Below, in pieces: positions 9,712-62,280 of a DNA stretch of 64,000 nucleotides (position 1 is its first letter; every line of letters begins with the position of its first letter). Made by a program: the position numbers and the translations under genes. The notes beneath the pieces were generated by a model. It was given only the letters and a program-made list of their open reading frames with translations. It made no database searches and was not told the DNA's origin. Source of the DNA: Sphingomonas pruni NBRC 15498 (lineage in GTDB: Bacteria > Pseudomonadota > Alphaproteobacteria > Sphingomonadales > Sphingomonadaceae); the NCBI RefSeq assembly GCF_001598455.1, contig NZ_BCYZ01000013.1, forward strand, positions 1 to 64,000, written 5' to 3'.

Positions 9712-9741
9712 GCGGTTCGCCCGGTCCACGATAAAAATGCA

Positions 9742-9848
9742 CCTCCCCGGCGAAGGCCGGGGCCTAGTTCCACTGATGCCAGAAATGGCGCGACCGTCGT
9801 GCCATGGCAAAGACGTCGCGACTGGGCCCCGGCCTTCGCCGGGGAGGG
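9742..9848. repeat. Paired REP-like palindromes (CCCCGGCGAAGGCCGGGG type)
   Basis: Two inverted copies of CTCCCCGGCGAAGGCCGGGG face each other about 65 bases apart between two convergent genes. Further copies are at 42369-42470 and, cut by the window end, at 63980-64000. Spacer sequence is not conserved between copies. Confidence 0.8.
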
Positions 9849-9858
9849 ATGTTTCGGA

Positions 9859-10509: not shown

Positions 10510-10630
10510 GATTTTTCGCGTACGCCCCTGAATTGAGTAGCAGCCCTTTAGTAAGCGTATTCGCGGGGGGCAAGGTGGAGTGTTTGTTTGCGACCTGGCG
10601 GTCACGCGCGGTGCCGCCCTCCACAGCCTT

Positions 10631-10734
10631 TCCAACGATGCTGCGCATCGCCGGAACCTTGGGCTGCTCCGCCCGCACCCCCACCCGACCGCCCAATCAG
10701 CTTATATTATGGGCGGTCGGGTGGGGGCGCGGGC
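10631..10734. repeat. Long palindromic repeat, family P, copy A
   Basis: A lead-in of about 40 bases (CCAACGATGCTGCGCATCG...) is followed by 25-base arms at 10671-10695 and 10710-10734 that pair with one mismatch around a 14-base A/T-rich loop. The same lead-in recurs at 44274 and the same type of GGGTGGGGG arm at 44313-44374 and 49827-49905. This copy lies between divergent genes, so it is not simply a terminator. Confidence 0.75.
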
Positions 10735-10826
10735 TGGCACCGTCCCACGCGCTGGAGCGCGTCAAAAAAGCCTCAAGCAAAGCTCGGGTTGCTACTATGG
10801 GGGCACCTCTCTAATCGCCGCCGCCC

Positions 10827-11717: not shown

Positions 11718-12481
11718 CGCCCCGCATCCTGATCATCGCCGGGTCCGATTCGGGCGGCGGCGCGGGGATCCAGGCCGATATCAAGACCGTGACGATGCTC
11801 GGCGGCCATGCCATGACCGCGATCACTGCGATCACCGCGCAGAACACGCTTGGCGTCCAGGCGGTACTGACGGTGCCGACCGAGATGGTGATCGCGCAGA
11901 TCAACTCGGTGGTGACCGATATCGGTGTCGACGCGGTCAAGATCGGGATGATTGGATCGGCGGGGACCGCGAACGCGGTGGCGGACGTGCTCGAGTCGCT
12001 CGACGTGCCGATCGTGTTCGATCCGGTGATGGTCGCGACCAGTGGCGATACGCTCGCCGACGCGGAGACGATCGCCGCGTTCGAGCGGCTGATGGGCTTG
12101 GCGTCGGTGACGACGCCCAATATTCCCGAGCTTGAGGCGCTTGGCGGCAAGGACGCGGTGCTCGCGCACGGCACGCATCTGGTGGCGAAGGGCGGTCATG
12201 CCGAGGGCAATTGGATCGTTGACGAGCTCTACTCGCCGACTGGCCGTCTTCGCCATTGGGAAGCGAAGCGCTTCGATACCACCGATACCCATGGAACCGG
12301 CTGCACGCTTGCCAGCGCGATCGCGACCGGATTGGGCGACGGCATGACAATTGAGGACGCGGTCGAGCGCGCAATTCGGTTCGTGCGCATCGCGATCCTG
12401 TCAGCGCCGGGGTTGGGCGAGGGCCACGGGCCGTTGGGACACGCTCTTGGCGTGATCCCGTTCGACGAGATAGAAGGTTGA
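11714..12481 (+). CDS. thiD: Hydroxymethylpyrimidine/phosphomethylpyrimidine kinase
   Basis: ThiD phosphorylates HMP and then HMP-phosphate for thiamine synthesis. The 255-residue product has the ribokinase-fold motif IAGSDSGGGAGIQADIKT at residues 7-24, GGHAMTAITAITAQNT, KIGMIGS, DPVMVATSGDTL and the catalytic DTHGTGCTLASAIA near residue 197. The start is ATG at 11714, overlapping the pheA stop by 4 bases. The neighbours pheA and rnhB have no metabolic link to thiamine, so this is a housekeeping operon rather than a pathway cluster. Confidence 0.94.
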   Translation: MTPRILIIAGSDSGGGAGIQADIKTVTMLGGHAMTAITAITAQNTLGVQAVLTVPTEMVIAQINSVVTDIGVDAVKIGMIGSAGTANAVADVLESLDVPIVFDPVMVATSGDTLADAETIAAFERLMGLASVTTPNIPELEALGGKDAVLAHGTHLVAKGGHAEGNWIVDELYSPTGRLRHWEAKRFDTTDTHGTGCTLASAIATGLGDGMTIEDAVERAIRFVRIAILSAPGLGEGHGPLGHALGVIPFDEIEG

Positions 12482-12482
12482 A

Positions 12483-13100
12483 ATGCCCGGCCTCAAACAC
12501 GAGAAGCTCTGCCTCGCACCAGTTGCCGGCGTTGACGAAGCCGGCCGCGGGCCGCTGGCGGGCCCCGTGGTCGCGGCAGCGGTGATCCTGCCGACCAAGG
12601 GTATCCCACGCGGGCTCGACGATTCGAAGAAGCTCACCGCTGCCGAGCGCGCGCGCCTGCATGGCCGGCTGATGGACTGCGCGACGGTTGGCGTGGGGAT
12701 CGTCGAGGCCGACGAGATCGACAGCCTCAACATCTATTGGGCGACGATGAAGGCGATGACGCTGGCGGTCGAAGCGCTGGGATGCCCGCCGGGCCATGTG
12801 CTGGTCGACGGCAATCGCCTGCCGCGCTGGACCTATCAGGCGACCGCGATCGTCGGCGGGGACGGCATCAGCATGTCGATCGCCGCCGCCTCGGTCATCG
12901 CCAAGCATACGCGCGACACGATCATGATCACCCACGCCGAATCCTATCCGCATTACGGCTGGCACACGAACAAGGGCTATAGCGCGCCCGAACATTTGCG
13001 CGCGCTGCGCGAGCACGGACCCAGTCCGCTGCATCGGCGGAGCTTCGCCCCGGTCGCCCAAGCAGCGCAGTCACAAGAAATTTCGGTTCTGCCGTTTTAA
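12483..13100 (+). CDS. rnhB: Ribonuclease HII
   Basis: RNase HII cuts the RNA strand of RNA-DNA hybrids and starts removal of misincorporated ribonucleotides. The 205-residue protein shows the catalytic VAGVDEAGRGPLAGPVVAAAV motif at about residues 16-36, DDSKKL near 54, VDGNRLPR near 107, and SIAAASVIAKHTRD. The ATG follows the thiD stop by a single base, so it is part of the pheA-thiD-rnhB operon. Confidence 0.95.
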   Translation: MPGLKHEKLCLAPVAGVDEAGRGPLAGPVVAAAVILPTKGIPRGLDDSKKLTAAERARLHGRLMDCATVGVGIVEADEIDSLNIYWATMKAMTLAVEALGCPPGHVLVDGNRLPRWTYQATAIVGGDGISMSIAAASVIAKHTRDTIMITHAESYPHYGWHTNKGYSAPEHLRALREHGPSPLHRRSFAPVAQAAQSQEISVLPF

Positions 13101-14429
<1,329 letters not shown>

Positions 14430-14437
14430 CGATATTC

Positions 14438-14531
14438 GTCACCCCGGCCTTGTGCCGGGGTCCACCGTGCAGCAAACCCGAGACGTGCGGTTCGAGCCGC
14501 ACGGTGGATGCCGGGACAAGCCCGGCATGAC
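14438..14531. repeat. Paired REP-like palindromes (GTCACCCCGG type)
   Basis: A CCCCGGCCTTGTGCCGGGG hairpin faces GCCGGGACAAGCCCGGC about 50 bases on, with GTCA/TGAC at the outer edges. A second inverted repeat, CCACCGTG...CACGGTGG, lies between them. It fills the ccrM-folP gap and resembles the pair at 3074-3160. Confidence 0.7.
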
Positions 14532-14543
14532 GGAAGTAAGCGA

Positions 14544-15599
14544 ATGGCCAACCTCCATCTCCGACCCGTCCAGTTCGTCGATACGCCGATCGGCCGCGAT
14601 GGCGAGGTCGCGCGGCTGGCGGGCGGGATGCAATGGTTCGCCGCCTATGAAGTGATCGAAAATGGCGCCAGGCGAACCGTCCCGATCGCCGAATTCGAGC
14701 GGACGCTCGGCGCCGACAACGAACGTGCCGCCGCGCTTCACGCAAACATCACGCGCGCCCGCCCGCCGCTGACCCTGGGCGACCGGACGTTGCGCTTCGA
14801 TCAACCTTCGGTCGCGGGTATCCTCAACGTCACGCCGGATAGTTTCTCGGATGGCGGCGCGCAGGACGATCCGGTCGCCGCCGGCGTCGCGATGGCCGCG
14901 GCCGGAGCGGCGCTGATCGATGTCGGCGGCGAATCCACGCGGCCGGGCGCGGAACTGGTGTGGGAAGAGGATGAGAAGCGCCGCGTCGAACCGGTCATTC
15001 GCGGCCTCGCTCAGGCCGGGACCTTGGTGTCGGTCGATACGCGCAAGGCCGTGGTGATGGAGGCGGCACTCGCCGCGGGTGCCGCGATCGTCAACGACGT
15101 CGCCGCCTTGCTATGGGACGACCGCGCGCTCGACGTGGTGGCGAAAGCCGGCTGCCCAGTCGTGCTGATGCACTCGCCCGACCCGGCCAAGAGCCCGCAT
15201 GGCGGCGGCGGTTACGGCGACGTCCTGACCGAAGTCTATGACTGGCTCGACGCGCGAATCGCCGCCGTGGTCGCCGGGGGCGTCGATCGCGCGAAGATCA
15301 TCGTCGATCCGGGCATCGGCTTCGGCAAGTCTCTTCAGGACAATCTCGCGCTGCTGAACGGGCTCGCCATGTTTCATGGCCTGGACTGTCCGATCCTGCT
15401 CGGCGCCAGTCGCAAGCGGATGATCGGCGCGCTGTCGAACGAGGCGCCCGCCGACCAGCGACTCGGTGGCTCGATCGCCTTGGCGCTCAAGGGGGCGGAA
15501 GCCGGCGTCCAGCTGCTGCGCGTCCACGACGTGCCCGAAACGGTCCAAGCGCTCAAAGTGTGGCGTGGACTGCGCGACCAGGCGCTGGTTGGTCGCTGA
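14544..15599 (+). CDS. folP: Dihydropteroate synthase
   Basis: FolP condenses 6-hydroxymethyl-dihydropterin pyrophosphate with p-aminobenzoate in folate synthesis and is the sulfonamide target. The predicted 351-residue protein has an N-terminal extension of about 85 residues before the TIM-barrel core. The core begins at VAGILNVTPDSFSDGG and continues with IDVGGESTRPGAE, VSVDTRKA, NDVAALLWD, VLMHSP and DPGIGFGKSLQDNLALL. ATG at 14544 is the first methionine after the REP element. It uses p-aminobenzoate that derives from chorismate, the product of aroC in this window, but is not in an operon with it. Confidence 0.95.
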   Translation: MANLHLRPVQFVDTPIGRDGEVARLAGGMQWFAAYEVIENGARRTVPIAEFERTLGADNERAAALHANITRARPPLTLGDRTLRFDQPSVAGILNVTPDSFSDGGAQDDPVAAGVAMAAAGAALIDVGGESTRPGAELVWEEDEKRRVEPVIRGLAQAGTLVSVDTRKAVVMEAALAAGAAIVNDVAALLWDDRALDVVAKAGCPVVLMHSPDPAKSPHGGGGYGDVLTEVYDWLDARIAAVVAGGVDRAKIIVDPGIGFGKSLQDNLALLNGLAMFHGLDCPILLGASRKRMIGALSNEAPADQRLGGSIALALKGAEAGVQLLRVHDVPETVQALKVWRGLRDQALVGR

Positions 15600-50140: not shown

Positions 50141-52558
50141 CTACCAGCCAAAACCAATGCCTAACCTGGCGTTACGGGGGCGCAACGGCGTGGTCTGGTC
50201 ACGATAGGTCAGCGAAAACGGATTGCCATAGGCAAACCGATTTGCCGCACTGTTGGTCAGGTTGTCGACAGCAAGATCGACCCGCAATCCGCCACGACGC
50301 ACACCGGCCGACAGGCCCAAAAGCCAGTAATTTCCCTGGCTCACGTCGAGAAGGTCGCCCGTGCCGAGAACGGATCGGCCGACATAATCGGCGCCGATTC
50401 GGATTCGCGGCGCAAGTCCGCGCGTGGCCCATTCGTACGACAAGCCCCAATGACCGGCGAACGGCGGCGTCTCCGGCAATCGACGGTTATTGCGCGTCGA
50501 CTGATCGGCGATCGGGCCGGAGACTTCATTGGCCGTAAGCAGGAAGGAAGCCTCGGCGTGCAGGCCTGCGACCGGTACCCAGTCGATTGTGCATTCGGCC
50601 GCTTCGATCCGGGCATTTCCGATATTGTCGGTATAGGGCTGGCCACGACGGTTGATCAGGTCCGCCTGGATGTTGCTCCAGAGCGCCATCGAAATGCTGC
50701 CCGAAAATGCCAGGCCCATCGGACCGTCGCGTAGCTTGCGCATCCCGATTTCGCCGACGGTGATCGCGTCGGATCGATAATCGGCAACCCGGCCAACGCC
50801 GGTCGCGACCGCGAGCCCCCCCGTTCGGTATCCGGTCTGGAACCGCGTGAACAAGGCAAGACGCGGCGAGACTTGCAGCGAAAAGGCCAATGTCGGATCA
50901 AATCGCCGGCTCAACCGGCCTTTGACGAAATTCGCCGATTGCGGGGCGGACGAGGGATCGCCATCGGTTCGGGCCATGGTGGCACGTCCGCCGGCGGTGA
51001 CCGAAAGACTCGGCAACAGGGCAATCGTCGCCTCGCCGAACAACGAGGCAGCCTTGGTGACGTTGGTCACGCCGATAATGTCGAACGAATTCCCCAGCGA
51101 ACCGACGGCGCGCGACAATATGTCCTGATCCCTGGCTAGGGTGAAGCCCACGACCCAGGAATTGCCGTTCGGCAACGAGCGCGACAGCCTCGTTTCCTGG
51201 CTCAACAACCATTTGTCGCGGTTCGCGATATACATGACCGGCGGCGACTTCGAACTAAGCGGGCGCCGCGGCGTGGCATCGAACTGGTCTGTCGACTGAT
51301 AGCCGACGATGCCCGTCGCCGAAAAGAGTCGCAGCCCGCTGTCCCACTCCCGGCTGACCGTCAGGCGACCGAACAGCAAGCGGTTGTCGAACGGTTGAGC
51401 TATGCGCGAGCGCCTCGTCAACGGCCCCTCTGCGGCTTCGGCATATTGGCCGTCTCGCGTGTCGATCCATTGCCCCGCCCCGCTCGCCTCGATCCGCCAG
51501 CCGGCGCCGGGGTCGATCCGTAACGCCAGCCGTCCTCCGACGGTGTCGCTGCGGTTGACGTTCCTCAGGCCGCGTCTGACATCGTCCAGATAGCCGCCCT
51601 CATGGACGGTATAGGCGACCGCGCGCATCCCCATCCGGTCCTTCAGTATCGGCAGGTTGACCATGCCGGCGACATCGAAACCGGTGCTTCCCCCTTGCGT
51701 CGCGGTGACGCCGCTCGACGCCGCGCCCGCTATCGCAGAGAGATCGGCCGGGTTGGAAGTCAGCCGGATCACGCCCCCGATCGCGCCCGAACCGTATAAT
51801 GTGCCCTGCGCGCCCTCCAATATTTCGATCCGGCGCATGTCATATAGCCGCAAGCCGGGATCGGGTCCGGAATAGGTCAGTTGCACGTCGTCGAGATAAA
51901 TGCTGGTTGGCGACTGCGTGGTGCCGCTGAAACTGCTGTCGGCGATACCGCGGATGAATACCTTGTTACGTCCGGCGCCCAGTTGGGTGCTTTGCAGGAT
52001 CGGGATGCCAGGGGCGAGGTCGGTCATCGTTCCCGCCGCCGAGGGGGGCGATCGTTCCGTCTCGGTCACCATGAGGCTCCCGGGGTAGCGCAACAGCGAG
52101 ATGCGCTGTTTGCTGGCCGTGACGATGATGTCGGGCTGCGGGGAGGACGGCGACGACGTCACCGCCGGTCGTGTCTTGCGTGGCGCCGCGCGAGCCGGCG
52201 CCCGCACGATACGATAGCCGCCGGTGATCGCGATCGCGCGATAGCCGGTATCGGCAAGGAGGCGGTCGAGCGCCTTGCGCACCGGCATGTGTCCCAGGAC
52301 CGGTTCGGTTCGGATTGATCGCAATCCCGATTCGGTGCTGATGATCTCGACCCCTGTTTCGCGCGCCAGCGTCACCAGGGCGATGTCGAGGGTGGTCGGC
52401 GGAATCGAAATCGGGACGTCGCGAGCAAGGGCGGTCGCGGGCGAGCAAGTCCCCAGTGCGAGCAGGAAGGCAGCAAGGCCAGGGCGTTGTCGCCGAAATC
52501 GACGCCCATTAGCGCGGGATCGACGCCCCGTCAGACAGGACCCATCGCTCACCGTCAC
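50141..52558 (-). CDS. TonB-dependent receptor with STN signalling domain
   Basis: The 805-residue product has an N-terminal signal region (about 28-46) and a secretin/TonB short N-terminal (STN) domain (about 50-120: IPPTTLDIALVTLARETGVEII ... ALDRLLADTGYRAI). After a Pro/Ser linker comes the plug domain (from DIIVTASKQRIS, with FIRGIADSSF and DMRRIEILEGAQGTLYGSGAIGGVIRLTS), then a 22-strand barrel ending in RLGIGFGW. STN receptors signal ligand binding to a FecR-type anti-sigma factor. Here FecR and the sigma factor are directly upstream; the start overlaps the fecR 3' end by 50 bases if GTG 52558 is used (52552 is also possible). The ligand is unknown; FecA-like iron chelates or glycans are options. 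Confidence 0.92.
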   Translation of the reverse strand: MTVSDGSCLTGRRSRANGRRFRRQRPGLAAFLLALGTCSPATALARDVPISIPPTTLDIALVTLARETGVEIISTESGLRSIRTEPVLGHMPVRKALDRLLADTGYRAIAITGGYRIVRAPARAAPRKTRPAVTSSPSSPQPDIIVTASKQRISLLRYPGSLMVTETERSPPSAAGTMTDLAPGIPILQSTQLGAGRNKVFIRGIADSSFSGTTQSPTSIYLDDVQLTYSGPDPGLRLYDMRRIEILEGAQGTLYGSGAIGGVIRLTSNPADLSAIAGAASSGVTATQGGSTGFDVAGMVNLPILKDRMGMRAVAYTVHEGGYLDDVRRGLRNVNRSDTVGGRLALRIDPGAGWRIEASGAGQWIDTRDGQYAEAAEGPLTRRSRIAQPFDNRLLFGRLTVSREWDSGLRLFSATGIVGYQSTDQFDATPRRPLSSKSPPVMYIANRDKWLLSQETRLSRSLPNGNSWVVGFTLARDQDILSRAVGSLGNSFDIIGVTNVTKAASLFGEATIALLPSLSVTAGGRATMARTDGDPSSAPQSANFVKGRLSRRFDPTLAFSLQVSPRLALFTRFQTGYRTGGLAVATGVGRVADYRSDAITVGEIGMRKLRDGPMGLAFSGSISMALWSNIQADLINRRGQPYTDNIGNARIEAAECTIDWVPVAGLHAEASFLLTANEVSGPIADQSTRNNRRLPETPPFAGHWGLSYEWATRGLAPRIRIGADYVGRSVLGTGDLLDVSQGNYWLLGLSAGVRRGGLRVDLAVDNLTNSAANRFAYGNPFSLTYRDQTTPLRPRNARLGIGFGW

Positions 52559-53480
52559 GCCGCCACGTTGCCCCGATCATCTCTGCCAGATGCGGGATAT
52601 CCCGCTCGGCGACCCCCGAGAAACGGACCATGCCGGTAAAGGGGCGCTGGGACAAGCGGCTGTCCAGTTCCAGTTCGAATCCGTAGAGCCGCTTGAGCGC
52701 CGCGACGACGTCGCCGACCTTTCGGCTGTCGAAGCTCAACATGCCGGTGCGCCAGCCGCCGATCAGCTTGGGCGCGACCCTATTGACGACGACCTCTCGC
52801 CCGTTGTCGCGCAGCGCCAGCGAGTCGCCTGCGCCGAGCCTTCGCGCTTCACCGTCGGGTTGGAGCAGTACCGATCCCTCGGCGACCGCGATCGTCAGGT
52901 CGTTGCCCTCGCGGGCGACGTTGAAGACGGTGCCGAGATCGCGGATCGTCATCGCGCCTGCGGTCATGGTGAATGGATGCGCGGCGTCGTGGACGACATG
53001 GAACAGCGCCTCGCCGCGATCGAGCGTCGCGGTGCGTGGGTCGGCGCGATCGAGGCGCAATACGGTACCGCCGCTCAATTCGATGCGGGTACCGCTCTGC
53101 AGCGCGACCGTGCGACGCTCGCCGGCCTTCGTCGCCACCACATAAGGATAAGACCGCGGCGCGACCAGCGACGGGACCAGCATCGCGACGCCGATGGCGG
53201 CTGCCGCCAGTCCGGGGATCAGCCACGGCCGGTGGCGGCGGCTCGGAATATTGTCGTTGCCGGCGGCCGGCCCAAGCGTAGGGAAATGCCCGCGATCGAT
53301 CAGGCGATCGTCCGTGGCGATCGCGTCATAGGCCGCGGCGTGGGCGGGGCTGGCTTCCAGCCAAGCGATGAACTCGGCCCAGCCATGCGCGTCGGCCTCG
53401 GCGAGGCGAAGATGCCAGCCAACTGCCTGTTCCACGATGTCTGACCGTTCACCCTGCACGATCCGCGCCCCTTTCTTCAT
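52509..53480 (-). CDS. FecR-family anti-sigma factor
   Basis: The 323-residue product has an N-terminal DUF4880-type cytoplasmic sigma-binding domain (about 10-60: VEQAVGWHLRLAEADAHGWAEFIAWLEASPAHAAAYD). One membrane segment lies near 90-110 (WLIPGLAAAAIGVAMLVPSLV). A periplasmic FecR domain follows (about 120-220: VALQSGTRIELSGGTVLRLDRAD, GEALFHVVHDAAHPFTMTAGAMTIRDLGTVFNVAREGNDLTIAVAEGSV) and then an STN-contacting C-terminal domain. It keeps the upstream sigma factor inactive until the receptor signals. ATG 53480 overlaps the sigma gene end by 32 bases. Confidence 0.92.
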   Translation of the reverse strand: MKKGARIVQGERSDIVEQAVGWHLRLAEADAHGWAEFIAWLEASPAHAAAYDAIATDDRLIDRGHFPTLGPAAGNDNIPSRRHRPWLIPGLAAAAIGVAMLVPSLVAPRSYPYVVATKAGERRTVALQSGTRIELSGGTVLRLDRADPRTATLDRGEALFHVVHDAAHPFTMTAGAMTIRDLGTVFNVAREGNDLTIAVAEGSVLLQPDGEARRLGAGDSLALRDNGREVVVNRVAPKLIGGWRTGMLSFDSRKVGDVVAALKRLYGFELELDSRLSQRPFTGMVRFSGVAERDIPHLAEMIGATWRRDGERWVLSDGASIPR

Positions 53481-54006
53481 GCTGACGACGCGCCGTTTCG
53501 GAATCCTCAGCAAATCGGTCCAACCGGTCGTGAATTTTGCGATAGGCGCGCTGCAACAGCTTTTCGACGCCGCTGACGCTGATTCCGAGATGCTCAGAGA
53601 TCGCGCGTTGGGACTGATCCTCCAGCCGGAACATGCGCAGTGCAGTCGCCATTCGCTCGGGCATGTCGGCAATGGCTCCTTCGACCTCTTGCCATTGGCG
53701 CTGCGCCATCAGCGTCCGTTCTGCGTCCGGCAGCTCGTCCGCTTGCGGTTGGCTATCGATCCAGACCGCGTCGCGCGCGCCGCGACGGCCGGTCGCGATC
53801 CGGCGGTCGGTCGCGAGATTGGCCGCGACGCGGTAGAGGAATGCCGCCGGCTGGGCCACCGGCTGGGCAGCGAGCCGGTCGATCCGCAGCCACATGTCCT
53901 GCAACACATCCTCGGCGTCTTCGCGATTGCCGAGTCGGGCGACCAGCAGACGCAACAGCATCGGGCGCTGCGCAAGAAAAATGGCCTTGAGACCGCCGTC
54001 TGCCAC
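53449..54006 (-). CDS. ECF RNA polymerase sigma factor, FecI type
   Basis: The 185-residue protein has sigma region 2 (FLAQRPMLLRLLVARLGNREDAEDVLQDMWLRIDRL, with AAFLYRVAANLATDRR for the -10 contact) and region 4 (IADMPERMATALRMFRLEDQSQRAISEHLGISVSGVEKLLQRAYRKIHDRL, with a helix-turn-helix). It is typical of the FecI group. GTG at 54006 is chosen because AGGGACG lies just upstream and the resulting length is normal; a longer frame to 54153 runs through the upstream gene. It is followed by FecR and an STN-type receptor, the complete surface-signalling set. Upstream, 17 bases away, ends a deacetylase gene, which is not usual for such a set. Confidence 0.9.
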   Translation of the reverse strand: MADGGLKAIFLAQRPMLLRLLVARLGNREDAEDVLQDMWLRIDRLAAQPVAQPAAFLYRVAANLATDRRIATGRRGARDAVWIDSQPQADELPDAERTLMAQRQWQEVEGAIADMPERMATALRMFRLEDQSQRAISEHLGISVSGVEKLLQRAYRKIHDRLDRFAEDSETARRQHEERGADRAG

Positions 54007-54023
54007 CGTCGTCGCGTCCCTGG

Positions 54024-54827
54024 TCAGGCAGGGAACGCCAGACCTTCGATGGCGGCCATGTCGGCGATCGGCCAATTGCGCAAGGCTTCGGCTTCGCGTG
54101 ACCTCGCCGTAGCGATCGCATCGCCGGGTCGTACGCCCGCGCCGGGGTGGCACATCACGAGATGAGTTCCGCCGGGCTTGCGCAGGAAACGGGGGAAGAG
54201 AGCCCGATAGTCGCCGGCAAAGTCATAATGACCGGCGAAGCTCTCATTGGTCGCGAGTCCGACCGCGGCCGCGGCGCGACGCAATCCGCGCGAATGCCAG
54301 GCGCTGCCGATCGCCTTGCCGGCGAAGGGACGCGCCAGCATAGCCGCCAATCGGTCGGTGCAATCGCGGATCCATGCCTGTGGTGCGCGCAATGCGGTTT
54401 CGGCCAGGACGAGGTCGCGAATACCCGGCAGGGCATGGGCGTGCTGATGCCCGTCGACAAAGGCAGGGGGACGGCCAAGCGCCGCGATGAAGGCATCGAA
54501 CTGCGCCGCGATCTCCGCCGCCGTCTCATCGAGCGGTATCCGACCACGTGCCGCCATGCGGCCGAGCGGGTTGATCGCCGGCAATCGGCCGGCGGCGGCC
54601 AGCCGCGGCATCGGAGTCAGGGGAACCTCGTCGGTCAACGTCAGGTGGAGTCCGATCTGAACATGGACGGGCAGGCCGCGGAGCAACTCGCTGTCGGCGC
54701 CCCAGCCTGGCATCGCCGCCATGCAGCTGATGGCGTTGATCTTTTCCGCACGCGCCAGGTCGGCGATCGTCTCACTAACGCCGCGCGAAAAGGCGAAATC
54801 GTCAGAACACAGGATGAGGCGGGCCAA
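54024..54827 (-). CDS. ChbG/HpnK-family carbohydrate deacetylase
   Basis: The 267-residue YdjC-fold protein has the metal/catalytic ILCSDDFAFSRGVSETI near the N-terminus, VQIGLHLTLTDEVPL, FVDGHQHAHALPGIRDLVL and a C-terminal MCHPGA. This is the ChbG/HpnK family, whose members remove acetyl groups from chitobiose (ChbG) or from N-acetylglucosaminyl-bacteriohopanetetrol (HpnK). TTG at 54827 is preferred because AAGGA lies 7 bases upstream and it starts the protein just before the metal motif; GTG at 54863 is the alternative. It overlaps the glycosyltransferase gene by 26 bases and lies 17 bases before the sigma factor gene. Hopanoid or glycan target is not known. Confidence 0.85.
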   Translation of the reverse strand: MARLILCSDDFAFSRGVSETIADLARAEKINAISCMAAMPGWGADSELLRGLPVHVQIGLHLTLTDEVPLTPMPRLAAAGRLPAINPLGRMAARGRIPLDETAAEIAAQFDAFIAALGRPPAFVDGHQHAHALPGIRDLVLAETALRAPQAWIRDCTDRLAAMLARPFAGKAIGSAWHSRGLRRAAAAVGLATNESFAGHYDFAGDYRALFPRFLRKPGGTHLVMCHPGAGVRPGDAIATARSREAEALRNWPIADMAAIEGLAFPA

Positions 54828-55674
54828 ATACCGGTCCTTCGAGATGATGATATTGCCGTTCACGGATGCGGTTGCTGAGAAGGCGTCGCCGTCTCAACCG
54901 CGGGGCCAGGAATGAATAGAAGAACCAATCCCCCGCCTTGGGGGCGGCTGCGGCATACACCAGCCGCTCGAGCAACGTCCAGCGGATCGAGTCACGGTCG
55001 CGGTCGCGCTTCGACGGCGCACACCAATAGTCGCGCGCATATCCCATTGCGCCGGTCCGCATCACCCGATGAACGATTTCGTGATCCTCGAGCACGTAAT
55101 TCCAGCGATCGGCATCGAACCCGCCGGCAGCGCGCAAGGCGGACGTCCGGAAGGCCTGACCCGCGCCGCCGGTATGCGACTGGCGAGGCAGCAAGCGTGC
55201 GACGGTCAGGAACCGACGCGCCGCGGTCTGGCGCGCCCGCTCGTCGATACCCGGCGCGACGAAATAGGCTCCGGCGGCGACGCAGCCGGGTTTTGTCAGG
55301 ATCGCTTCGGCAGCGGCGAGGTAGTGCGACGGATAGAGCGTGTCGGCATCGCAGGTCGCCACCCACGGCGTGCGCACCCAACCGAGACCGGTGCGCAGCG
55401 CGGCGACCTTACCCGGCAAGGGTTCGGTGATCAGTAGATAATCGAGACCATGATCGCGGCACGCTGCGCGCGCGATCATCGCGCTGCCGTCGGTCGAGCC
55501 GTTATCGATCAGGATCAGCGTCATCGATACCGATTGCGCCGCAAGGCTGGCGATCGTTGCGGGAAGATAGTCGCTTTCATTGAAGAAGGGTAGCAATATG
55601 CTCCAGGCAGGCGCGGTCCGCCCGTCGATGCGGCTGGCATTGCGGGATCTGACCGGATCGAGATCGAGATACAT
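54802..55674 (-). CDS. Glycosyltransferase family 2
   Basis: The 290-residue GT-A enzyme has WSILLPFFNESDYLPATIASLAAQSV, LIDNGSTDGSAMIA and the metal-binding DxD-like CDADTLYPSHY. Later come FDADRWNYVLEDHEIVHRVM, the ED motif, and a basic C-terminal region (APRLRRRRLLSNRIRERQYHH) that could bind the membrane surface. No membrane helix is clear. ATG at 55674 is chosen; it follows a divergent gap. It is the first gene of the minus-strand chain glycosyltransferase-deacetylase-sigma-FecR-receptor. The sugar is unknown. Confidence 0.88.
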   Translation of the reverse strand: MYLDLDPVRSRNASRIDGRTAPAWSILLPFFNESDYLPATIASLAAQSVSMTLILIDNGSTDGSAMIARAACRDHGLDYLLITEPLPGKVAALRTGLGWVRTPWVATCDADTLYPSHYLAAAEAILTKPGCVAAGAYFVAPGIDERARQTAARRFLTVARLLPRQSHTGGAGQAFRTSALRAAGGFDADRWNYVLEDHEIVHRVMRTGAMGYARDYWCAPSKRDRDRDSIRWTLLERLVYAAAAPKAGDWFFYSFLAPRLRRRRLLSNRIRERQYHHLEGPVFGPPHPVF

Positions 55675-55973
55675 TGACGGCCGTCCATGGGAAGCGGGAC
55701 GGGATGGAAGATGGCGGCCGCACAAGACCCGGACCGACGTGTCGCTCCGCGGGTTCCCCCTGATCGTGCCGGCGCCACTTCCGCCCCACATAAATGACGA
55801 CGCGCATGCCGGCGATCCGCACTGAATGACGCGAAAAAATCGATCCTGGTGATCTCACTGGGTTCGTCGCGCGGCTCGATCCCAGCAGACGACGTGATTG
55901 TGCAATTCCGCACTTCGATCACGAAAAATATGTCGCATGACGCCACCGTCACCGCCCCTTAAGTGGATCGGCC
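55675..55973. other. Divergent intergenic region, no gene
   Basis: This 299-base gap separates the family 2 and family 39 glycosyltransferase genes. I see no reliable reading frame, RNA gene or strong hairpin. It holds a GTGC-N6-GCAC inverted repeat at 55900-55913 that could be an operator. Promoters for both strands are expected here but none stands out clearly. Confidence 0.4.
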
Positions 55974-57467
55974 GTGGCGACGGCGGCATTCATCGATCGA
56001 TCAGCAATCAATGCGCCGGTGCGGCTGCCGCGCATCGGCCTTGCGCTGCTGTTCATGGCGGTGGCCATCGCGGTTCGGGCGCGCGACTTCGGTAACCCGA
56101 TCATCCATGTCGACGAGCAATATTACCTGCTGGTCGCCGACCACTTTCTGCATGGCGCGCTTCCCTACGTCGATATCTGGGACCGCAAGCCCATCGGGCT
56201 GTTCCTGATCTTCGCGGCGATCCGTCTGCTCCCAGGCGACGGCATCCTGGCTTATCAAGTGATCGCGACCGCGTTTGCCGCTGCCACCGCTCTGCTCATC
56301 GCGCTCGGCGGCCTGCGGCTGGGCGCGGGCCGGGCTGGCGCCATAGCGGCCGGCCTGGCCTATATCTTCTGGCTCTCGCTGCTCAGCGGCCGCGGCGGGC
56401 AATCGCCGGTCTTCTACAATCTGTTCATGGCCGGGGCGGGATTGCTGACCTTGCGGCTGCCGGAGCTTGCCAGGCGCGCCGATCGGCAGGCGATCCTGGC
56501 TAGTGGCTGCGCCGCTTGCCTGCTCGCCGGCCTGGCGATCCAGACCAAATACACACCCATGGTCGAAGGCGCGTTCTTCGGGCTCGCCCATCTCTGGTTC
56601 CTGCGGCGCGCGGGGGCAAACTGGGCGGCGCTGGCCGGCGCCGGCGCGATCTGGGTCGCGCTGGGTATCGCGCCGACTGCTGCGGTCGTCGCGAGCTATT
56701 ACGAGCGCGGCCCCGCCGACTTTCAAGCGTTTTGGTTCGCCAACTTTGCGTCGGTTGCGCTGCGCAAGGGGTATCCGGCGGCCAAGATCATCTCGCGGCT
56801 GGCGGGCACGACGCTGCAATTATCGCCGTTCATCGGCTGCGCGATCGTGGCCTGGCGGACGCGGCTGAACCGGGCGGAGATGCTGCTCGCCTTTGGCTGG
56901 CTTGTCGCGGCGTTGGTCGCTTTCGCGATGATCGGCGCGTTCTTCGATCATTATGCGCTGCCGCTGATGGTGCCGCTGGCGGTGATCGCCGCGCCCGTGC
57001 TGGGACAGCGCAGGCTGGCCTTGATCGGCACCGCCATAGTCGGCGCGCTGCTGGCCGTTTTCCACCTTGCCACCGAACCTGACGATCGCGGTTCGGCCTA
57101 TCTCGTTGCCCAGGCGATGGTCGCGAATGACGGCGACGAATGCCCTTACGTCTTCGCCGGGGACTCGATCCTATATCATCTCGCGCACGCCTGTCTGCCG
57201 ACCGCTTATGCTTTCCCATCGACACTCGCTTACGAGCCGGAACAGGGAGCGACCGGAATCGATGAGGCGGCGGAAGTGCGGCGCATCATGGCCCGCCGCC
57301 CGCCGGTGGTGGTGACGTTGGACCGTCCGCTGGCGCCCTGGAACCGCGACAGCCTCGCGATCGTGACGGGCGCCTTGGCGCGAGATTATCGCCTCATCCT
57401 CTCGGCCCCGCGCGAGGATGGACATCTGCTCGTCTACTGTCGCCGCGATCGGCCGCGAGCGCGATGA
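55974..57467 (+). CDS. Multi-pass glycosyltransferase (GT39/ArnT-like)
   Basis: The 497-residue membrane protein has about ten hydrophobic segments. Its first periplasmic loop carries the acidic motif HVDEQYYLLVADHFLHGALPYVDIWDRKPIG, where the DE pair and the following Asp-Arg-Lys match the catalytic loop of the GT-C fold (PMT/ArnT). Such enzymes take polyprenyl-phosphate sugars and glycosylate lipid A or other periplasmic acceptors. A soluble C-terminal domain of about 110 residues follows (MVANDGDECPYVFAGDSILYHL onward). GTG at 55974 has a GGAT sequence nearby. It is divergent from the family 2 glycosyltransferase, which could make the polyprenyl-sugar donor. That pairing is inference. Confidence 0.85.
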   Translation: MATAAFIDRSAINAPVRLPRIGLALLFMAVAIAVRARDFGNPIIHVDEQYYLLVADHFLHGALPYVDIWDRKPIGLFLIFAAIRLLPGDGILAYQVIATAFAAATALLIALGGLRLGAGRAGAIAAGLAYIFWLSLLSGRGGQSPVFYNLFMAGAGLLTLRLPELARRADRQAILASGCAACLLAGLAIQTKYTPMVEGAFFGLAHLWFLRRAGANWAALAGAGAIWVALGIAPTAAVVASYYERGPADFQAFWFANFASVALRKGYPAAKIISRLAGTTLQLSPFIGCAIVAWRTRLNRAEMLLAFGWLVAALVAFAMIGAFFDHYALPLMVPLAVIAAPVLGQRRLALIGTAIVGALLAVFHLATEPDDRGSAYLVAQAMVANDGDECPYVFAGDSILYHLAHACLPTAYAFPSTLAYEPEQGATGIDEAAEVRRIMARRPPVVVTLDRPLAPWNRDSLAIVTGALARDYRLILSAPREDGHLLVYCRRDRPRAR

Positions 57468-57546
57468 AAGATGCGAGGGGCAGGTGTGGGTCGGATTGGT
57501 CGGCGACGTCTGATTATCGCCTTCCTTACCATCCGGACCGGATCTG

Positions 57547-58068
57547 ATGCGCTCGAACATTCTCGTCGCCGGCCTTGTTGCTTCCTTCCTCGCCATCAAT
57601 CCCTCTTCGGCGGGAGCCGAACAGATCGGTCAGGACGCCGACATGTGCAGGGCCGGTCGTGGCCCAGCCATTCAGGTCAACGTTCAAGGGCTGAAGGACC
57701 GCAGCGGGGAATTGTGGCTGGAACTCTATCCCCCGACACCGGACGATTTCCTGAGCGCGGACACCGACCTGATAGCTCAAGGCAAAATCTTCCGCCGCAC
57801 CCGGTCGCGGCTCCCGGCGGTCGGCAGCGTTGAAATCTGCATTCGGGTGCCGCGTCCGGGCCGCTACGCGCTGATGCTGCGCCACAATCGTGTCGAGCGC
57901 GACAAATTCTCCTTTTGGAACGACGGGGCAGGGGTACCGGCCAACCGGTCATTGGGCCGTAGCAGGCCTCGGCTCGATCAGGCTCTCGTCAATGCGGGCC
58001 CAGGCGTAACCGTCGTCGCGATCAAGATGCAATATCTGCGCGGCCTCGGCTTTTCACCGCTGGACTGA
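57547..58068 (+). CDS. DUF2141 exported protein
   Basis: The 173-residue product has a signal peptide (residues 1-24, ending SSAGAEQ) and a DUF2141 beta-sandwich: IQVNVQGLKDRSGELWLELYP, GSVEICIRVPRPGRYALMLRHNRVERDKFSFWNDGAGVPANRSLG, VVAIKMQYL. Members are periplasmic or outer-membrane-associated proteins of unknown role. It lies between a GT-C glycosyltransferase and a RodZ-like HTH gene on the same strand. Confidence 0.87.
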   Translation: MRSNILVAGLVASFLAINPSSAGAEQIGQDADMCRAGRGPAIQVNVQGLKDRSGELWLELYPPTPDDFLSADTDLIAQGKIFRRTRSRLPAVGSVEICIRVPRPGRYALMLRHNRVERDKFSFWNDGAGVPANRSLGRSRPRLDQALVNAGPGVTVVAIKMQYLRGLGFSPLD

Positions 58069-58128: not shown

Positions 58129-58509
58129 ATGTTCGTGACCGAGTCCCATGCGGCGCGCGGCGCGCAGCCGCCCGGATGGGCGATTTCAATCCAGGCCGGC
58201 GAGGCATTATGGCGTGGACGGCTGAGGGTCGGCTTGTCGTTGGACGACATCGCCGCGCGAATCGGCGCCGATCCGGACATGGTCGGCGCACTTGAGAATT
58301 CGGATTTCGACAGGCTGCCATCACGCGATTTGTCGATCGCCATGGCGAGAGCCTATGCGGAGATCGTCGGACTATCGAGGAAATGGGTGGCCCTGGCGCT
58401 TGCCAAGGAATTGGTTCGACGGGATGAAGACGCGGGGTTCGACCATCGTGTCGAGCATCCTCCATTTGTACGGATTCGACTCCTTATGAGGCTATATCTT
58501 GGGGTATAA
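58129..58509 (+). CDS. RodZ-like helix-turn-helix protein
   Basis: The 126-residue product has a five-helix Cro/RodZ-type HTH in LRVGLSLDDIAARIGADPDMVGALENSDFDRLPSRDLSIAMARAYAEIVGLSRKWV, very like the N-terminal domain of RodZ. It lacks the transmembrane helix and periplasmic part of a full RodZ, so it is a short relative or a free regulator. Its C-terminal third contains a basic RRDEDAGFDHRVEHPPFVRIRLLMR region. A small Cys-containing frame and a polysaccharide deacetylase follow. Role unknown. Confidence 0.68.
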   Translation: MFVTESHAARGAQPPGWAISIQAGEALWRGRLRVGLSLDDIAARIGADPDMVGALENSDFDRLPSRDLSIAMARAYAEIVGLSRKWVALALAKELVRRDEDAGFDHRVEHPPFVRIRLLMRLYLGV

Positions 58510-58595
58510 GGACATCGGCGCATCCGATCGGATATCCAATGGCAATCGGCAAGATTCTTTGTTCGTTCGGCCGACACCTACCGGATCCGGGGCAT

Positions 58596-58718
58596 ATGAA
58601 CTGGGGCAATTCGACTTCAGGGTCCGGTTTCGACGTGAGCCATTGCAGCCGCTGCGGGATCGAACTGACCCGTCGGCGGGGAAGCAAATGGCGGGCGACC
58701 CCTCTTGCCGACCGCTGA
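58596..58718 (+). CDS. Possible 40-residue CxxC micro-protein
   Basis: A frame of 40 codons starts with ATG after GGATCCGGGG and encodes MNWGNSTSGSG, then FDVSHCSRCGIELTRRRG, then SKWRATPLADR. The Cys-x-x-Cys-Gly motif recalls half a zinc ribbon, and the product is basic. It fills the gap between the RodZ-like gene and the deacetylase. Evidence is only the frame and motif, so it may be chance. Confidence 0.3.
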   Translation: MNWGNSTSGSGFDVSHCSRCGIELTRRRGSKWRATPLADR

Positions 58719-58765
58719 ACTGGAGAGGTGACGTTCATCGGCGCCGCGGATCGATAATAGGTACG

Positions 58766-59722
58766 GTGACGTCGCTATTCAGGGCGATGCTGGCGGTCGC
58801 CGTTCTGATCGTCAGCCAACCGGCCGCCGCTCGGGCACGGGAAGGCAGGATCGCGCTCACGTTCGACGACCTTCCGGCACTGACTATTCTCAACGATCAA
58901 GCCTATGTCGATTATCTCAACGTCATGATTCTGCGGGGACTGAAGCGCCATCATTTCCCCGCGACGGGCTTCGTCAACGGGGGCAAGCTGGATGAACTGA
59001 ACCGAGACCGGCAAATCGCCAATCTCAAGCGGTGGCTCGACGCCGGAATGGATCTTGGGAACCACACATTTTCACATGAATCCCCCAATACGCTTGGCGC
59101 GAAGGCCTATATAGCCGACATCATTCGCGGCGAGCCGGCCACCGCTGACCTTCTTCGTTCGCACGGCCAAAGGCTGCGCTGGTTCCGGCATCCCTATCTC
59201 GAAACGGGCTTCCCGATGTCGGTCAAGCGGACGATCGACGGCTGGCTTTCGGGACACGGCTACCGCATCGCACCGGTCACGGTCGATGCGGACGACTGGG
59301 AGTTCGCCGAACCTTATGACGATGCCATCGCGCGCAAGGATGTCGCGCGCCAACGGCGGATCAAGGCGGAATATCTGGCTTATACCGCCCGCCGGATCGA
59401 GTGGTCGATCCGGAGCGGGCGCGTCCTGTTCGGGCGCGATATCGCCCAGGTCATGCTCCTGCATTGCACTCGCCTCAACGCGGATTCGATCGACGATCTC
59501 GCATCCTTGTTCCGGCGCTTTCGTTTGCGCCCAGTGAGCCTCGATCGCGCGATGCGCGACCCCGCTTATCGCACGCCCGACACCGTCGCGGAAAAAGAGG
59601 GGATGGACTGGCTCGAGCGCTGGGCTGCGGTGAAACACAAGGATCTACCCGAAGAAGGCGACGACGACCCGCCCGCCGATATTCAGGCTGCTTACGATCG
59701 GGTCGACAATGATCGGCACTGA
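58766..59722 (+). CDS. Exported polysaccharide deacetylase (NodB-type)
   Basis: The 318-residue product has a signal peptide (ending QPAAARAREG) and the NodB homology domain with all five motifs: LTFDDLPAL (catalytic Asp pair), NHTFSHESP (zinc histidines), WFRHPYLETG, VDADDW and VMLLHCTRLN. It is a carbohydrate esterase family 4-type enzyme acting on N-acetyl sugars outside the cytoplasm. The frame extends upstream to 58499, but this would give an unlikely N-terminus. GTG at 58766 has AGG upstream, and ATG at 58787 is also possible. It is the last gene of the plus-strand group here. Confidence 0.87.
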   Translation: MTSLFRAMLAVAVLIVSQPAAARAREGRIALTFDDLPALTILNDQAYVDYLNVMILRGLKRHHFPATGFVNGGKLDELNRDRQIANLKRWLDAGMDLGNHTFSHESPNTLGAKAYIADIIRGEPATADLLRSHGQRLRWFRHPYLETGFPMSVKRTIDGWLSGHGYRIAPVTVDADDWEFAEPYDDAIARKDVARQRRIKAEYLAYTARRIEWSIRSGRVLFGRDIAQVMLLHCTRLNADSIDDLASLFRRFRLRPVSLDRAMRDPAYRTPDTVAEKEGMDWLERWAAVKHKDLPEEGDDDPPADIQAAYDRVDNDRH

Positions 59723-59902
59723 CCGATCGATATCCTGAACCCGGGCCCATGACGGCCTCCGAGATAGCTAGCTCAACGCAGGGCCGCCCCTTGGGATGAG
59801 CATCGTGATCTCCCGTAATCGCCTCCGCGATGATGGACCCGCGGGTCCCATCGAGGGGTGACAAGCGATCAGATTATCGACCCCCTGGTTCGTCGGAACA
59901 AC

Positions 59903-59926
59903 TTAATTCACTATTGTGTGAATTAA
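59903..59926. promoter_or_regulatory. Perfect 24-base palindrome before the second TonB-dependent receptor
   Basis: TTAATTCAC (59903-59911), six bases and GTGAATTAA (59918-59926) are perfect inverted arms. They lie about 80 bases before the receptor ATG in the only A/T-rich patch of a 284-base gene-free region. This is the pattern of a dimeric repressor site such as TetR or GntR. The rest of the region (59723-60006) holds a GGACCCGCGGGTCC palindrome at 59835-59848 and the GGGAGGG ribosome binding site. Confidence 0.55.
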
Positions 59927-60006
59927 TATTGCAACGGGCCGCGCTTTGCGGCAGTTTCCCGGGCACCGGCGCCGGAGAGCGCGATGTGATCTGTGGGAGG
60001 GATGCA

Positions 60007-62280
60007 ATGAAGGTTCGTGCGTTGTGGCTGGGCGCATCCGCGCTCGCTCTTACCTGGAGCGGCGGCGCTGCCGCTCAAACCGCTCCTCAATCCACGCCGG
60101 CAGCCGCGCCGCAGGACGAGAGTCAGGCAGCGACCGACAACAGCAATTTGCCCGGCGACATCGTCATCACCGCGCAGCGTCGCAGCGAAGACCTGATGAC
60201 GACCGCGGTATCGGCGTCGGTGCTGAGCGGCACCGATCTGGGCAACAAGGGCGTCGCCAATGTCGACGCGCTGCAGTTCGCGATGCCAAGCGTCGTGGTG
60301 AACAATTTCGGCCAGGGCAACGATTTCAATATTCGCGGCATCGGCAAGGCCGAGCACAATACCCAGACGACGACGGGCGTGATCACCTATCGCGACGGCG
60401 TGCCGACCTTCCCGGGCTATTTCCAGATGGAGCCCTATTTCGACGTCGCCAACATCCAGGTGCTGCGCGGCCCGCAGGGCACGATCGTCGGCCAGAATTC
60501 GACTGGCGGCGCGGTGTTCGTCAACACCAACGACCCGATCGTCGGCGGCGAGATCCACGGCTATTTCAACGCCAATTACGGCAATTACAACGACGCCGGC
60601 ATGCAGGGCGCGATCAACCTGCCGATCAGCGACACATTCGCCGCGCGGGTCGCCCTGTTCGCCGAGCGCCGCGACAGCTTCTTCAAGGTTCATGGCGCCG
60701 GCGGCACCGCTTATCCGTACGACAGCGGCAAGATGGGCTATCTGGCCGGGCGCGTGAGTTTCCTGTGGAAGCCGAGCAGCCAGTTCTCGGCATTGTGGAA
60801 GACCGATTTCGACGCGCTCGATTCGGGCGCCTATCCCGCGTCTCCGTTCTGGCAGCACAGCGACGCCTATCCGGCGCTCAAGCGCGACCTCTACGATATT
60901 CAACTCAACGCGCCGCAGGATGCCCGCGACACCTTCGTGCGCTCGGTGCTGAAGCTGGAGTACGATACGACCGGCGGCGTCAAGTTCAGGTCGATCACCG
61001 GGTTCCAGAACGGAACCACCCTGTATCGCGCCGACCTGGACGGCACGGCATCGAACATCGTCGATCCGGTCTCCAAGACGATCAAGAACTGGAGCTTCTT
61101 CGACAAGGTGGTCGAGACGCAGTTCAGCCAGGAATTCAACATCATCTCGCCCGACAATCAGCGCTTCACCTGGCTGCTGGGCGGGTTCGGGATGTGGAAC
61201 GCCTATTTCTTCCCGAAGCCGTTCAGCAATTTCACGATCAACGCCTGCTATCCGACGACGACGGTTCCCGCCTGCCTCTACCAGTTGGCGGGCCGCAATC
61301 CGGAGCGCAACCTTGCCGCTTTCGGCCAGGTCGGCTTCCAGATCACGCCGAGCCTGAAGCTGGAACTCGGCGGCCGTTACACCGCGAGCCGCTCGACCAA
61401 CTATGTCAACGTCCTGCAATATGGCCTGCCGATCAGCCAGGTGCAGTCGGTGTCATCGGACAATTTCTCGTACAAGGCGTCGCTGGGCTGGAAGATCAAT
61501 CGCGACCAGTATCTCTATGGCTTCGTCGCTTCCGGTTTCCGTCCGGGCGGGCTCAACGTCCCGGTCGGCCTGGGCCTGCCGGCGCCGTTCAAGCCGGAGA
61601 CGATCACCTCGTACGAAGCGGGCTGGAAAGCCACTTGGGCCGGCGGCCACGTTCGGACAACGGTGACCGGTTTCTACAACGACTATAAGAATTTCCAGGT
61701 CATCATCGGCTATCCGACCTTCCCGACCTTCGGCATCGAGCTGAACGTCCCCGACAAAACCAAGATTTATGGGTTCGAGGCCGAGGCGGAGGTTACCCTC
61801 GGCGGCTTCAAATTCGACGCCGGCGTCAACGTCCTGCACAGCGAACTGGGTAGTTTCTTCGCCAGCGATCCTCGCGTGGCCGCGTTCGGTGCGTGCGACC
61901 CGATCAAGGGCGGCTCGCCCGCCGCCACGAACTGCATCAACCTGAACGGCCGTCGCCAGACCTATGCGCCCAATGTCACGTTCAACGTGAGCGGCGAATA
62001 TACCTTTAAATTGGGCGACGGGAGTTCGATCACACCGCGCGCCAATTTCGGCTATGTCGGCAGCCAGTGGGCGACGCTGTTCCAGAATACCAACCTCGGC
62101 GATCGGCTCGACGCGCGTAAGATCCTCAATGCCCAGCTTGCTTACGCCAAAGGCAGCTGGACGATCACGGCCTATGGCACCAACCTGACCAACCAGCATT
62201 ATGTCGCGGCGCTCAATAGCGGGCTCTATTTCGCCGGAGCCCCGCGCCAATACGGCGTCAAAGTACTCAAGACCTTCTGA
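60007..62280 (+). CDS. TonB-dependent receptor
   Basis: The 757-residue outer-membrane receptor has a signal peptide (residues 1-24, ending GGAAAQ) and a TonB-box-like GDIVITAQRRSED near residue 50. The plug domain contains VNNFGQGNDFNIRGIGKAEHNTQ and FDVANIQVLRGPQGTIVGQNSTGGAVFVNT. A beta barrel follows, ending in the aromatic VKVLKTF. No STN domain is present, so it does not signal to a sigma factor. GGGAGGG lies 7 bases before the ATG; the frame could start much earlier but that would lose the signal peptide. It shares a direction and probably a transcript with the following acyl-CoA synthetase, suggesting uptake of a lipid- or aromatic-acid-like substrate. Confidence 0.93.
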   Translation: MKVRALWLGASALALTWSGGAAAQTAPQSTPAAAPQDESQAATDNSNLPGDIVITAQRRSEDLMTTAVSASVLSGTDLGNKGVANVDALQFAMPSVVVNNFGQGNDFNIRGIGKAEHNTQTTTGVITYRDGVPTFPGYFQMEPYFDVANIQVLRGPQGTIVGQNSTGGAVFVNTNDPIVGGEIHGYFNANYGNYNDAGMQGAINLPISDTFAARVALFAERRDSFFKVHGAGGTAYPYDSGKMGYLAGRVSFLWKPSSQFSALWKTDFDALDSGAYPASPFWQHSDAYPALKRDLYDIQLNAPQDARDTFVRSVLKLEYDTTGGVKFRSITGFQNGTTLYRADLDGTASNIVDPVSKTIKNWSFFDKVVETQFSQEFNIISPDNQRFTWLLGGFGMWNAYFFPKPFSNFTINACYPTTTVPACLYQLAGRNPERNLAAFGQVGFQITPSLKLELGGRYTASRSTNYVNVLQYGLPISQVQSVSSDNFSYKASLGWKINRDQYLYGFVASGFRPGGLNVPVGLGLPAPFKPETITSYEAGWKATWAGGHVRTTVTGFYNDYKNFQVIIGYPTFPTFGIELNVPDKTKIYGFEAEAEVTLGGFKFDAGVNVLHSELGSFFASDPRVAAFGACDPIKGGSPAATNCINLNGRRQTYAPNVTFNVSGEYTFKLGDGSSITPRANFGYVGSQWATLFQNTNLGDRLDARKILNAQLAYAKGSWTITAYGTNLTNQHYVAALNSGLYFAGAPRQYGVKVLKTF

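Follow-up and report, generated by a model that had tools for sequence, protein, structure and literature searches.

In Sphingomonas pruni NBRC 15498, a chain of five linked genes on the minus strand of contig NZ_BCYZ01000013.1 (positions 1 to 64,000, the whole stretch analysed here and hereafter the window) places two glycan-modifying enzymes, a GT2 glycosyltransferase and a YdjC/ChbG-family deacetylase (YdjC), ahead of an extracytoplasmic function (ECF) sigma factor, a FecR regulator and a TonB-dependent receptor (TBDR). Our analysis suggests an autoregulated cell-surface-signalling operon that would act on a membrane-glycolipid modification path, a reading to which we assign a probability of about one half. 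Sequence comparison gives its footing: gene order and conservation, the positions of a promoter-like element, the enzyme folds, the failure to find LpxC and a set of recurrent partner genes.

The possibility that the order is an oddity of one strain, allowed for in the initial annotation of this DNA, is refuted by a neighbourhood search. The deacetylase was matched at E ≤ 1e-40 in 77 of 295 congeneric genomes (genomes are counted throughout as species representatives, without correction for kinship), the neighbourhood was fetched in all 77, and in 73 the genes run GT2-YdjC-ECF-FecR-TBDR on one strand. The four exceptions are two contig ends (L116, L138), a locus with ECF-FecR ahead of GT2 (L152) and another in which additional genes separate YdjC from ECF (L153). 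Judged from these neighbourhoods, the order is beyond chance, and glycan genes standing first in one chain with a sigma factor, an arrangement unfamiliar to the initial annotation, are seen here and in those 73 genomes. Two loci outside the 77, L025 from another family and L154, a second copy in one genome, are without the set. The nearest named neighbours are Sphingomonas, the S. mali deacetylase being 90% identical, and the cassette is carried by S. melonis, S. trueperi and S. sanguinis as well as by Sphingobium (L245, L257), Novosphingobium (L263, L264) and one further genus (L335). Across 72 cassettes, in which gene starts are predicted and overlap sizes therefore approximate, GT2 overlaps YdjC in 67, ECF overlaps FecR in 69 and FecR overlaps TBDR in all 72, while the YdjC/ECF spacing is at most 50 bases in 71.

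A search with the sigma factor (E ≤ 1e-30) found it in 79 of 201 genomes, and the best 30 loci, the window included, all carry the full order. Twenty further loci were chosen for having the sigma factor and no deacetylase match: GT2 stands ahead of ECF in six of them and is absent from 14, and in four of the six a GT-C glycosyltransferase gene precedes GT2 in the same direction. In a FastTree phylogeny of 108 ECF proteins, the 79 cassette factors lie inside a clade of 87 (support 0.85) that includes L174, which has no GT2, and within which the YdjC-less sets are nested; L152, L153 and L333 fall outside, and the fragments from L332 (30 residues) and L400 (84 residues) are too short to be placed. 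Among the matches listed from open-licence PMC full text, the cassette is undescribed in titles and the starts of abstracts, which is not proof that it is unpublished.

Within the window, the coordinates, overlaps and gap of the five open reading frames (Table 1) are all as initially annotated. Pfam recognises Glycos_transf_2 in the first product (E 1.5e-20) and YdjC in the second (E 5.4e-45), which thus belongs to the YdjC family; the sigma factor carries Sigma70_r2 and r4_2 and scores 63.1 bits against the sigma70-ECF cut-off of 42.9. In the product of the next gene, which has a possible alternative start at a GTG at codon 8 preceded by AAAGGGG, FecR (8.1e-16, 58.7 bits) and DUF4880 (31.1 bits) are both above cut-off. 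The receptor shows TonB plug and barrel domains. Its designation as STN-type holds for its relatives, with STN recognised in 22 of 25 aligned receptors, and not for the window copy itself, where Pfam gave no STN match at E ≤ 0.01. An ECF factor, an adjoining FecR gene and a TonB receptor, with STN coming in through relatives, together make up a FecI-FecR-FecA set.

Table 1. Features of the cassette and its surroundings (positions in the window).
Feature	Position	Strand	Remarks and evidence
GT2 glycosyltransferase, first gene of the chain	54802..55674	-	Pfam, alignment, model, fold comparison
YdjC/ChbG-family deacetylase	54024..54827	-	TTG start; 26-base overlap with GT2; Pfam, alignment, solved relatives
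ECF sigma factor, FecI-like	53449..54006	-	GTG start; 17-base gap to YdjC; Pfam, NCBIfam
FecR anti-sigma/sigma regulator (FecR + DUF4880)	52509..53480	-	32-base overlap with ECF; Pfam
TonB-dependent receptor	50141..52558	-	GTG start; overlap with FecR up to 50 bases; Pfam
P1 proximal element	55796..55822	-	148 bases before GT2; sole exact consensus match in own genome
P1 distal copy	55888..55913	-	spacer one base shorter
Degenerate element before FecR	53484..53510	-	within ECF 3′ end; below matrix threshold in the window
GT-C glycosyltransferase, divergent from the chain	55974..57467	+	alignment, model, fold comparison; no promoter-like element in front
Element before DUF2141	57484..57512	+	two mismatches; 63 bases before DUF2141
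DUF2141 protein	57547..58068	+	Pfam; signal-like N-terminus by eye; element in front

An alignment of 15 GT2 upstream regions yielded a promoter-like element, GTGYGGRTC-N10-GCGTCGTC, present in two copies. A guessed FecI-like motif was discarded as not conserved: of 74 regions, 23 had one or more scattered matches. A matrix built from 43 GT2-upstream sites and run on the regions before predicted starts passes in 72 of 82 cases before GT2, in 47 of 94 before FecR, where the element overlaps the 3′ end of the ECF coding sequence, and in 19 of 27 before the DUF2141 gene; it has no pass before GT-C (0/59), YdjC (0/76), ECF (0/95) or TBDR (0/92). Twenty permuted matrices gave at most one match per gene set, and the FecR and DUF2141 counts are independent of the training because the matrix came only from GT2-upstream sites. 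An element before GT2 and none before ECF fit a sigma factor read from the transcript of the glycan genes, as had been proposed from the window alone: the sigma gene is probably without a promoter of its own and read from the autoregulated one of the glycan genes. The simplest reading would be a positive loop, with ECF transcribed behind GT2 and YdjC, and FecR-TBDR having an extra internal element.

In the S. pruni genome, a looser pattern has five exact matches, one of which is the P1 site of the window. Allowing up to three mismatches, the consensus has 30 matches (one exact, five with two mismatches and 24 with three) versus two for the reversed pattern; because GC-rich coding sequence often contains TCGTC, we give weight to only two of these, the exact site in the window and the DUF2141 site with its two mismatches. 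Across 32 genomes, 24 of them with the cassette, the strict pattern gave 12 matches, six in cassettes, three at a single type of unlinked locus and three elsewhere. This unlinked locus, a GT4 gene ahead of an undescribed membrane-protein family, was present in all eight genomes fetched (L410-L416, L418; GT4 confirmed by Pfam in L411), and in six of them the GT4 gene has a site of 23-33 bits in front of it, L415 and L418 being the exceptions. Six loci from Sphingobium, Novosphingobium and other sets were held out of the training: sites were found at FecR in L245, at GT2 and FecR in L257 and at GT2 in L263, and the site in L332 lies within the start region of a membrane-protein frame. A membrane-protein gene between GT-C and GT2 has the element in L022, L119, L120 and L137. 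As a separate observation, a sigma-type element stands 46-47 bases before a 250-residue protein with an N-terminus that looks lipoprotein-like by eye (L093:2149-2901, L094:3614-4366 and L102:1813-2568, oriented coordinates); the L102 copy is without a Pfam match.

In GT2, DAD and ED residues, which we take to be catalytic, are invariant among 28 aligned relatives, and its AlphaFold model (predicted local distance difference test, pLDDT, 82.1) matches many GT-A enzymes, best of all PcManGT (6yv7; Z 22.0, root-mean-square deviation (rmsd) 3.5, 223 aligned); going by the model, this match leaves the acceptor unspecified. D9, D10, H61, H127 and H131 of YdjC, presumably its metal site, are invariant among 26 aligned relatives. 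The divergent gene at 55974-57467 has no Pfam match, and the predicted structure of its product (pLDDT 85.6) agrees with the initial call of a GT-C glycosyltransferase, superposing on Pmt4 (9i5k; Z 25.5, rmsd 4.2, 353 aligned) and ArnT (5ezm; Z 21.8, rmsd 4.3, 430 aligned); D47, E48 and K72, again assumed to be catalytic, are invariant among 24 aligned relatives, and the ArnT equivalog model scores 17.4 bits against a cut-off of 567. GT-C is divergent in 52 of 73 cassettes and lies beyond the receptor in two. It is not an obligatory partner, and related copies occur in cassette-less genomes; in a whole-genome search of 29 cassette or deacetylase genomes, several had only a paralogue of about 40-45% identity. 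The DUF2141 protein is probably secreted, and the element frequently found before its gene makes the latter a likely member of the local regulon.

Several genes recur as partners of these enzymes. GT2 relatives at E ≤ 1e-60 occur in 47 of 396 genomes of the order, representing 19 of 84 genera, and in six loci of other genera (L343, L351, L352, L367, L368, L369) GT2 is found with the membrane family, DUF2141 and GT4. The membrane family (about 315 residues; alignment A5, e.g., L120:4939-5889 and L343:7330-8262) has no meaningful Pfam or NCBIfam match; a UPF0104-like identity was considered and the name dropped, no such match appearing in either database even at E ≤ 5. Because it is present in all 77 Sphingomonas genomes searched, 44 with the cassette and 33 without, it is not cassette-specific, and in many loci it adjoins glycosyltransferases. 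In L404 and L405, other Sphingomonas loci, it stands together with DUF2141, GT4, a DUF2334 deacetylase and a GT-C paralogue; L153 carries GT2-YdjC-membrane family-GT4-DUF2334-ECF-FecR-TBDR in a single run, and L152 has ECF-FecR-DUF2334-membrane family-GT2-YdjC-GT-C with a divergent GT4.

LptF/LptG-like permeases adjoin DUF2141 or GT-C in seven cassettes (L093, L102, L111, L112, L115, L117, L121), all four tested (L093, L111, L115, L121) matching LptF_LptG in Pfam, and one also flanks the L025 cluster. In Caulobacter, the sphingolipid gene region is described as holding second versions of LptC, LptF and LptG, proposed for transport (PMC11324152). A second ECF-FecR-TBDR set in the S. pruni genome (L400, contig C46:6000-25900, set at 7999-15534) is followed after about 25 bases by the membrane family; farther on come a GT4 gene in divergent orientation and an MlaA gene, and L428 from another genome has the same layout; the other FecR sets of S. 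pruni were viewed within 1.5 kb flanks. In two YdjC-less sets, penicillin-amidase family genes lie beyond the receptor (L155:88-1575, L158:109-1392).

As to the acceptor, LpxC was not found in the S. pruni genome or in any of 44 cassette genomes searched, while the control search recovered it in four of 14 control genomes, including E. coli and Caulobacter. Lipid A, one of the targets initially suggested, is therefore unlikely and was rejected. Sphingomonadaceae are described as being without lipopolysaccharide and bearing glycosphingolipids instead (PMC7956469), with glucuronic acid, galactose, glucosamine (GlcN) and mannose reported as the sugars in sphingomonads (PMC6445935). Given this and the lack of any detected lipid A path, the acceptor is most likely an outer-membrane glycosphingolipid, phosphatidylglycerol or a polymer coming next. 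In Pseudomonas aeruginosa, GlcN-phosphatidylglycerol is reported to be made by a GT4 enzyme and a COG3233 deacetylase (PMC12713373). A modified glycan as the output of the system, also part of the initial annotation, appears to be the best reading of the sequences. The tetrasaccharide lipid of sphingomonads contains α-linked GlcN, and GT2 enzymes invert while GT4 enzymes retain. The GT4/DUF2334 loci thus fit a constitutive GlcN step better, and on the same grounds of linkage and mechanism the sugar made by the GT2/YdjC cassette would be another, inducible one.

The sequence of events that we propose would begin outside the cell, with a ligand binding the STN-type receptor and a signal passing through FecR to free the ECF sigma factor. 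The sigma factor would read the tandem elements before GT2, raising GT2, deacetylase and its own levels, the element before FecR, giving more FecR and receptor, and the element before DUF2141, as well as, in some species, those before additional genes for glycosyltransferases and membrane proteins. In the cytoplasm, GT2 may add an N-acetylated amino sugar to a membrane lipid or polyprenyl phosphate, from which the YdjC enzyme would remove the acetyl group to leave a charged amine; the undescribed membrane protein and the LptF/G-type permease linked in relatives might aid passage across the envelope, and GT-C would add or transfer a sugar on the periplasmic side. In this scheme, we infer the dependence on sigma, the sugar, the acceptor, the order of reactions and the ligand. 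Since a sensor and a sigma factor are kept in one conserved chain behind glycan enzymes, surface lipids may be re-decorated upon an outside signal. More tentatively, and with the odds somewhat against it, we speculate about an inducible glycosphingolipid head-group switch, in which a TBDR-sensed ligand and a dedicated sigma factor would have the constitutive sugars replaced or capped by the charged GT2/YdjC amino sugar. Several sensor sets would then share one toolbox (GT4/GT2, DUF2334/YdjC, membrane family, DUF2141, LptF/G, GT-C) holding the unnamed enzymes for glucosamine-containing glycosphingolipids.

Several observations weigh against a glycolipid operon of this kind. The 72/82 count before GT2 is partly circular, as 43 of the sites trained the matrix; the strict pattern found the cassette in only six of the 24 cassette genomes searched, and the held-out cassettes L264 and L335 are without an element near GT2 or FecR. 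GT-C is without the element in all 59 regions and did not turn up in the DNA fetched around 19 of 73 cassettes, some of them lying at contig ends, and six of the 20 related sets retain GT2 without YdjC. Finally, the acceptor is argued by association, glucosaminyl-phosphatidylglycerol or a polymer being the apparent alternatives.

The polymer deserves most attention among the rival explanations, even if we consider it doubtful: the same signalling operon could act on a surface or secreted polysaccharide or a glycoprotein, with GT2, YdjC and GT-C modifying a unit carried on a lipid before it is exported. Support comes from a related sigma lineage that has no GT2 (L160, L162-L173), since in L166 a Polysacc_synt_3 flippase gene runs into ECF with a GINT1_N gene nearby, and Glyphos_transf-like genes (L171, L164) and GT4 genes occur in its surroundings; the flippase was Pfam-tested in L166, similar frames elsewhere being recognised by eye. 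Titles of solved structures also indicate that GT-C enzymes of the same fold can use protein or glycan acceptors. Yet the recurrent deacetylase, the LptF/G-type permease and MlaA (by the second set of S. pruni) point to lipids, and no polymerase came to notice around the cassettes, though no search was aimed at one.

Glycan scavenging, in which the receptor would import amino-sugar oligosaccharides for YdjC to deacetylate in the manner of ChbG with GT2 incidental, is unlikely. TBDR uptake of plant carbohydrates is on record (PMC1790865), and YdjC does resemble a solved chitooligosaccharide deacetylase (E 4e-27) and ChbG, but its 75.4 bits are far under the cut-off of 227 for the NCBIfam chitin disaccharide deacetylase equivalog, and its partners are biosynthetic: the GT2/YdjC overlap is kept in 67 of 72 cassettes and GT2 persists without YdjC in the six sets mentioned above. 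We think it improbable, too, that this is an ordinary iron or siderophore-type FecIRA set whose glycan genes are mere neighbours sharing an operon. The best NCBIfam matches of the receptor are indeed siderophore and haem receptor families, all below cut-off, but 73 of 77 genomes keep the glycan genes at the head of the chain, and the element is placed before GT2 and DUF2141 and, in six genomes, before the unlinked glycan operon too. Hopanoid head-group modification of the HpnI-HpnK type, the other target initially named, shares the pairing of GT2 with a YdjC-family deacetylase and was rejected as highly improbable, YdjC scoring a weak 52.7 bits against the HpnK cut-off of 232.6 and GT2 reaching 18.2 where the HpnI cut-off is 310 (NCBIfam). 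The initial annotation is in this way partly supported, right in its core, that a single regulated unit holds the glycan genes with the sigma factor and has a glycan as output, the lipid A and hopanoid targets being unsupported.

FecI/FecR/TBDR signalling is known chiefly for nutrient capture. The cassette shares with FecI-FecR-FecA the ECF sigma factor, the FecR with DUF4880, the STN-type TonB receptor and their order, and differs in that its output is glycan or lipid enzyme genes lying ahead of the sigma gene, with the element before them. In the ArnC-ArnD-ArnT/NaxD modification of lipid A with amino sugars, a GT2, a deacetylase and a GT-C act under envelope control. This three-step logic is that of the cassette, which differs in being controlled by an ECF sigma set, not by a two-component system, and in occurring in genomes where no LpxC was found; ArnD, moreover, is not known to belong to the YdjC family. 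If the head-group switch is true, it would be a sphingolipid counterpart of Arn-type lipid A modification.

The gpgSDF genes of P. aeruginosa likewise have a glycosyltransferase followed by a deacetylase, a membrane protein proposed as flippase and an amino-sugar lipid product, but are described with GT4, COG3233 deacetylase and UPF0104 members (PMC12713373) where the cassette combines GT2, YdjC and GT-C with a dedicated sensor set. The cassette is accordingly not of the gpgSDF type; GT4, DUF2334 and the membrane family co-occur in other Sphingomonas loci. In Caulobacter, Sgt1 and Sgt2, reported as the first glycosphingolipid enzymes known, also glycosylate sphingolipid stepwise under an environmental cue, in their case with hexuronic acid and hexose on phosphate starvation, and the available text of that source describes no deacetylase or surface signalling (PMC6445935). 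As far as the available parts of two sources go, the named sugar transferases of bacterial glycosphingolipids stop at the first one or two, and no enzyme is named for the glucosamine step (PMC6445935, PMC13318209). By its gene order and shared promoter-like elements, the cassette seems to wire FecI/FecR/TBDR signalling to envelope-glycolipid enzymes, and what would be new is a FecI-type signalling variant whose link to glycosphingolipid remodelling can be tested. Together with its relatives, the cassette supplies a short list of testable candidates, with the sigma factor as a handle for switching the system on, and also defines an uncharacterised membrane-protein family present in every one of the 77 genomes searched.

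Beyond DUF2141, the window (58129-62280) holds an HTH_25 protein, a polysaccharide deacetylase and a second TonB receptor; the polysaccharide deacetylase also adjoins the S. mali cassette (L222), at 81% identity. A Sphingomonas cassette is carried as well by QDFQ01000001.1 (L258), an entry titled Arthrobacter sp. TPD3018, a title that is probably wrong.

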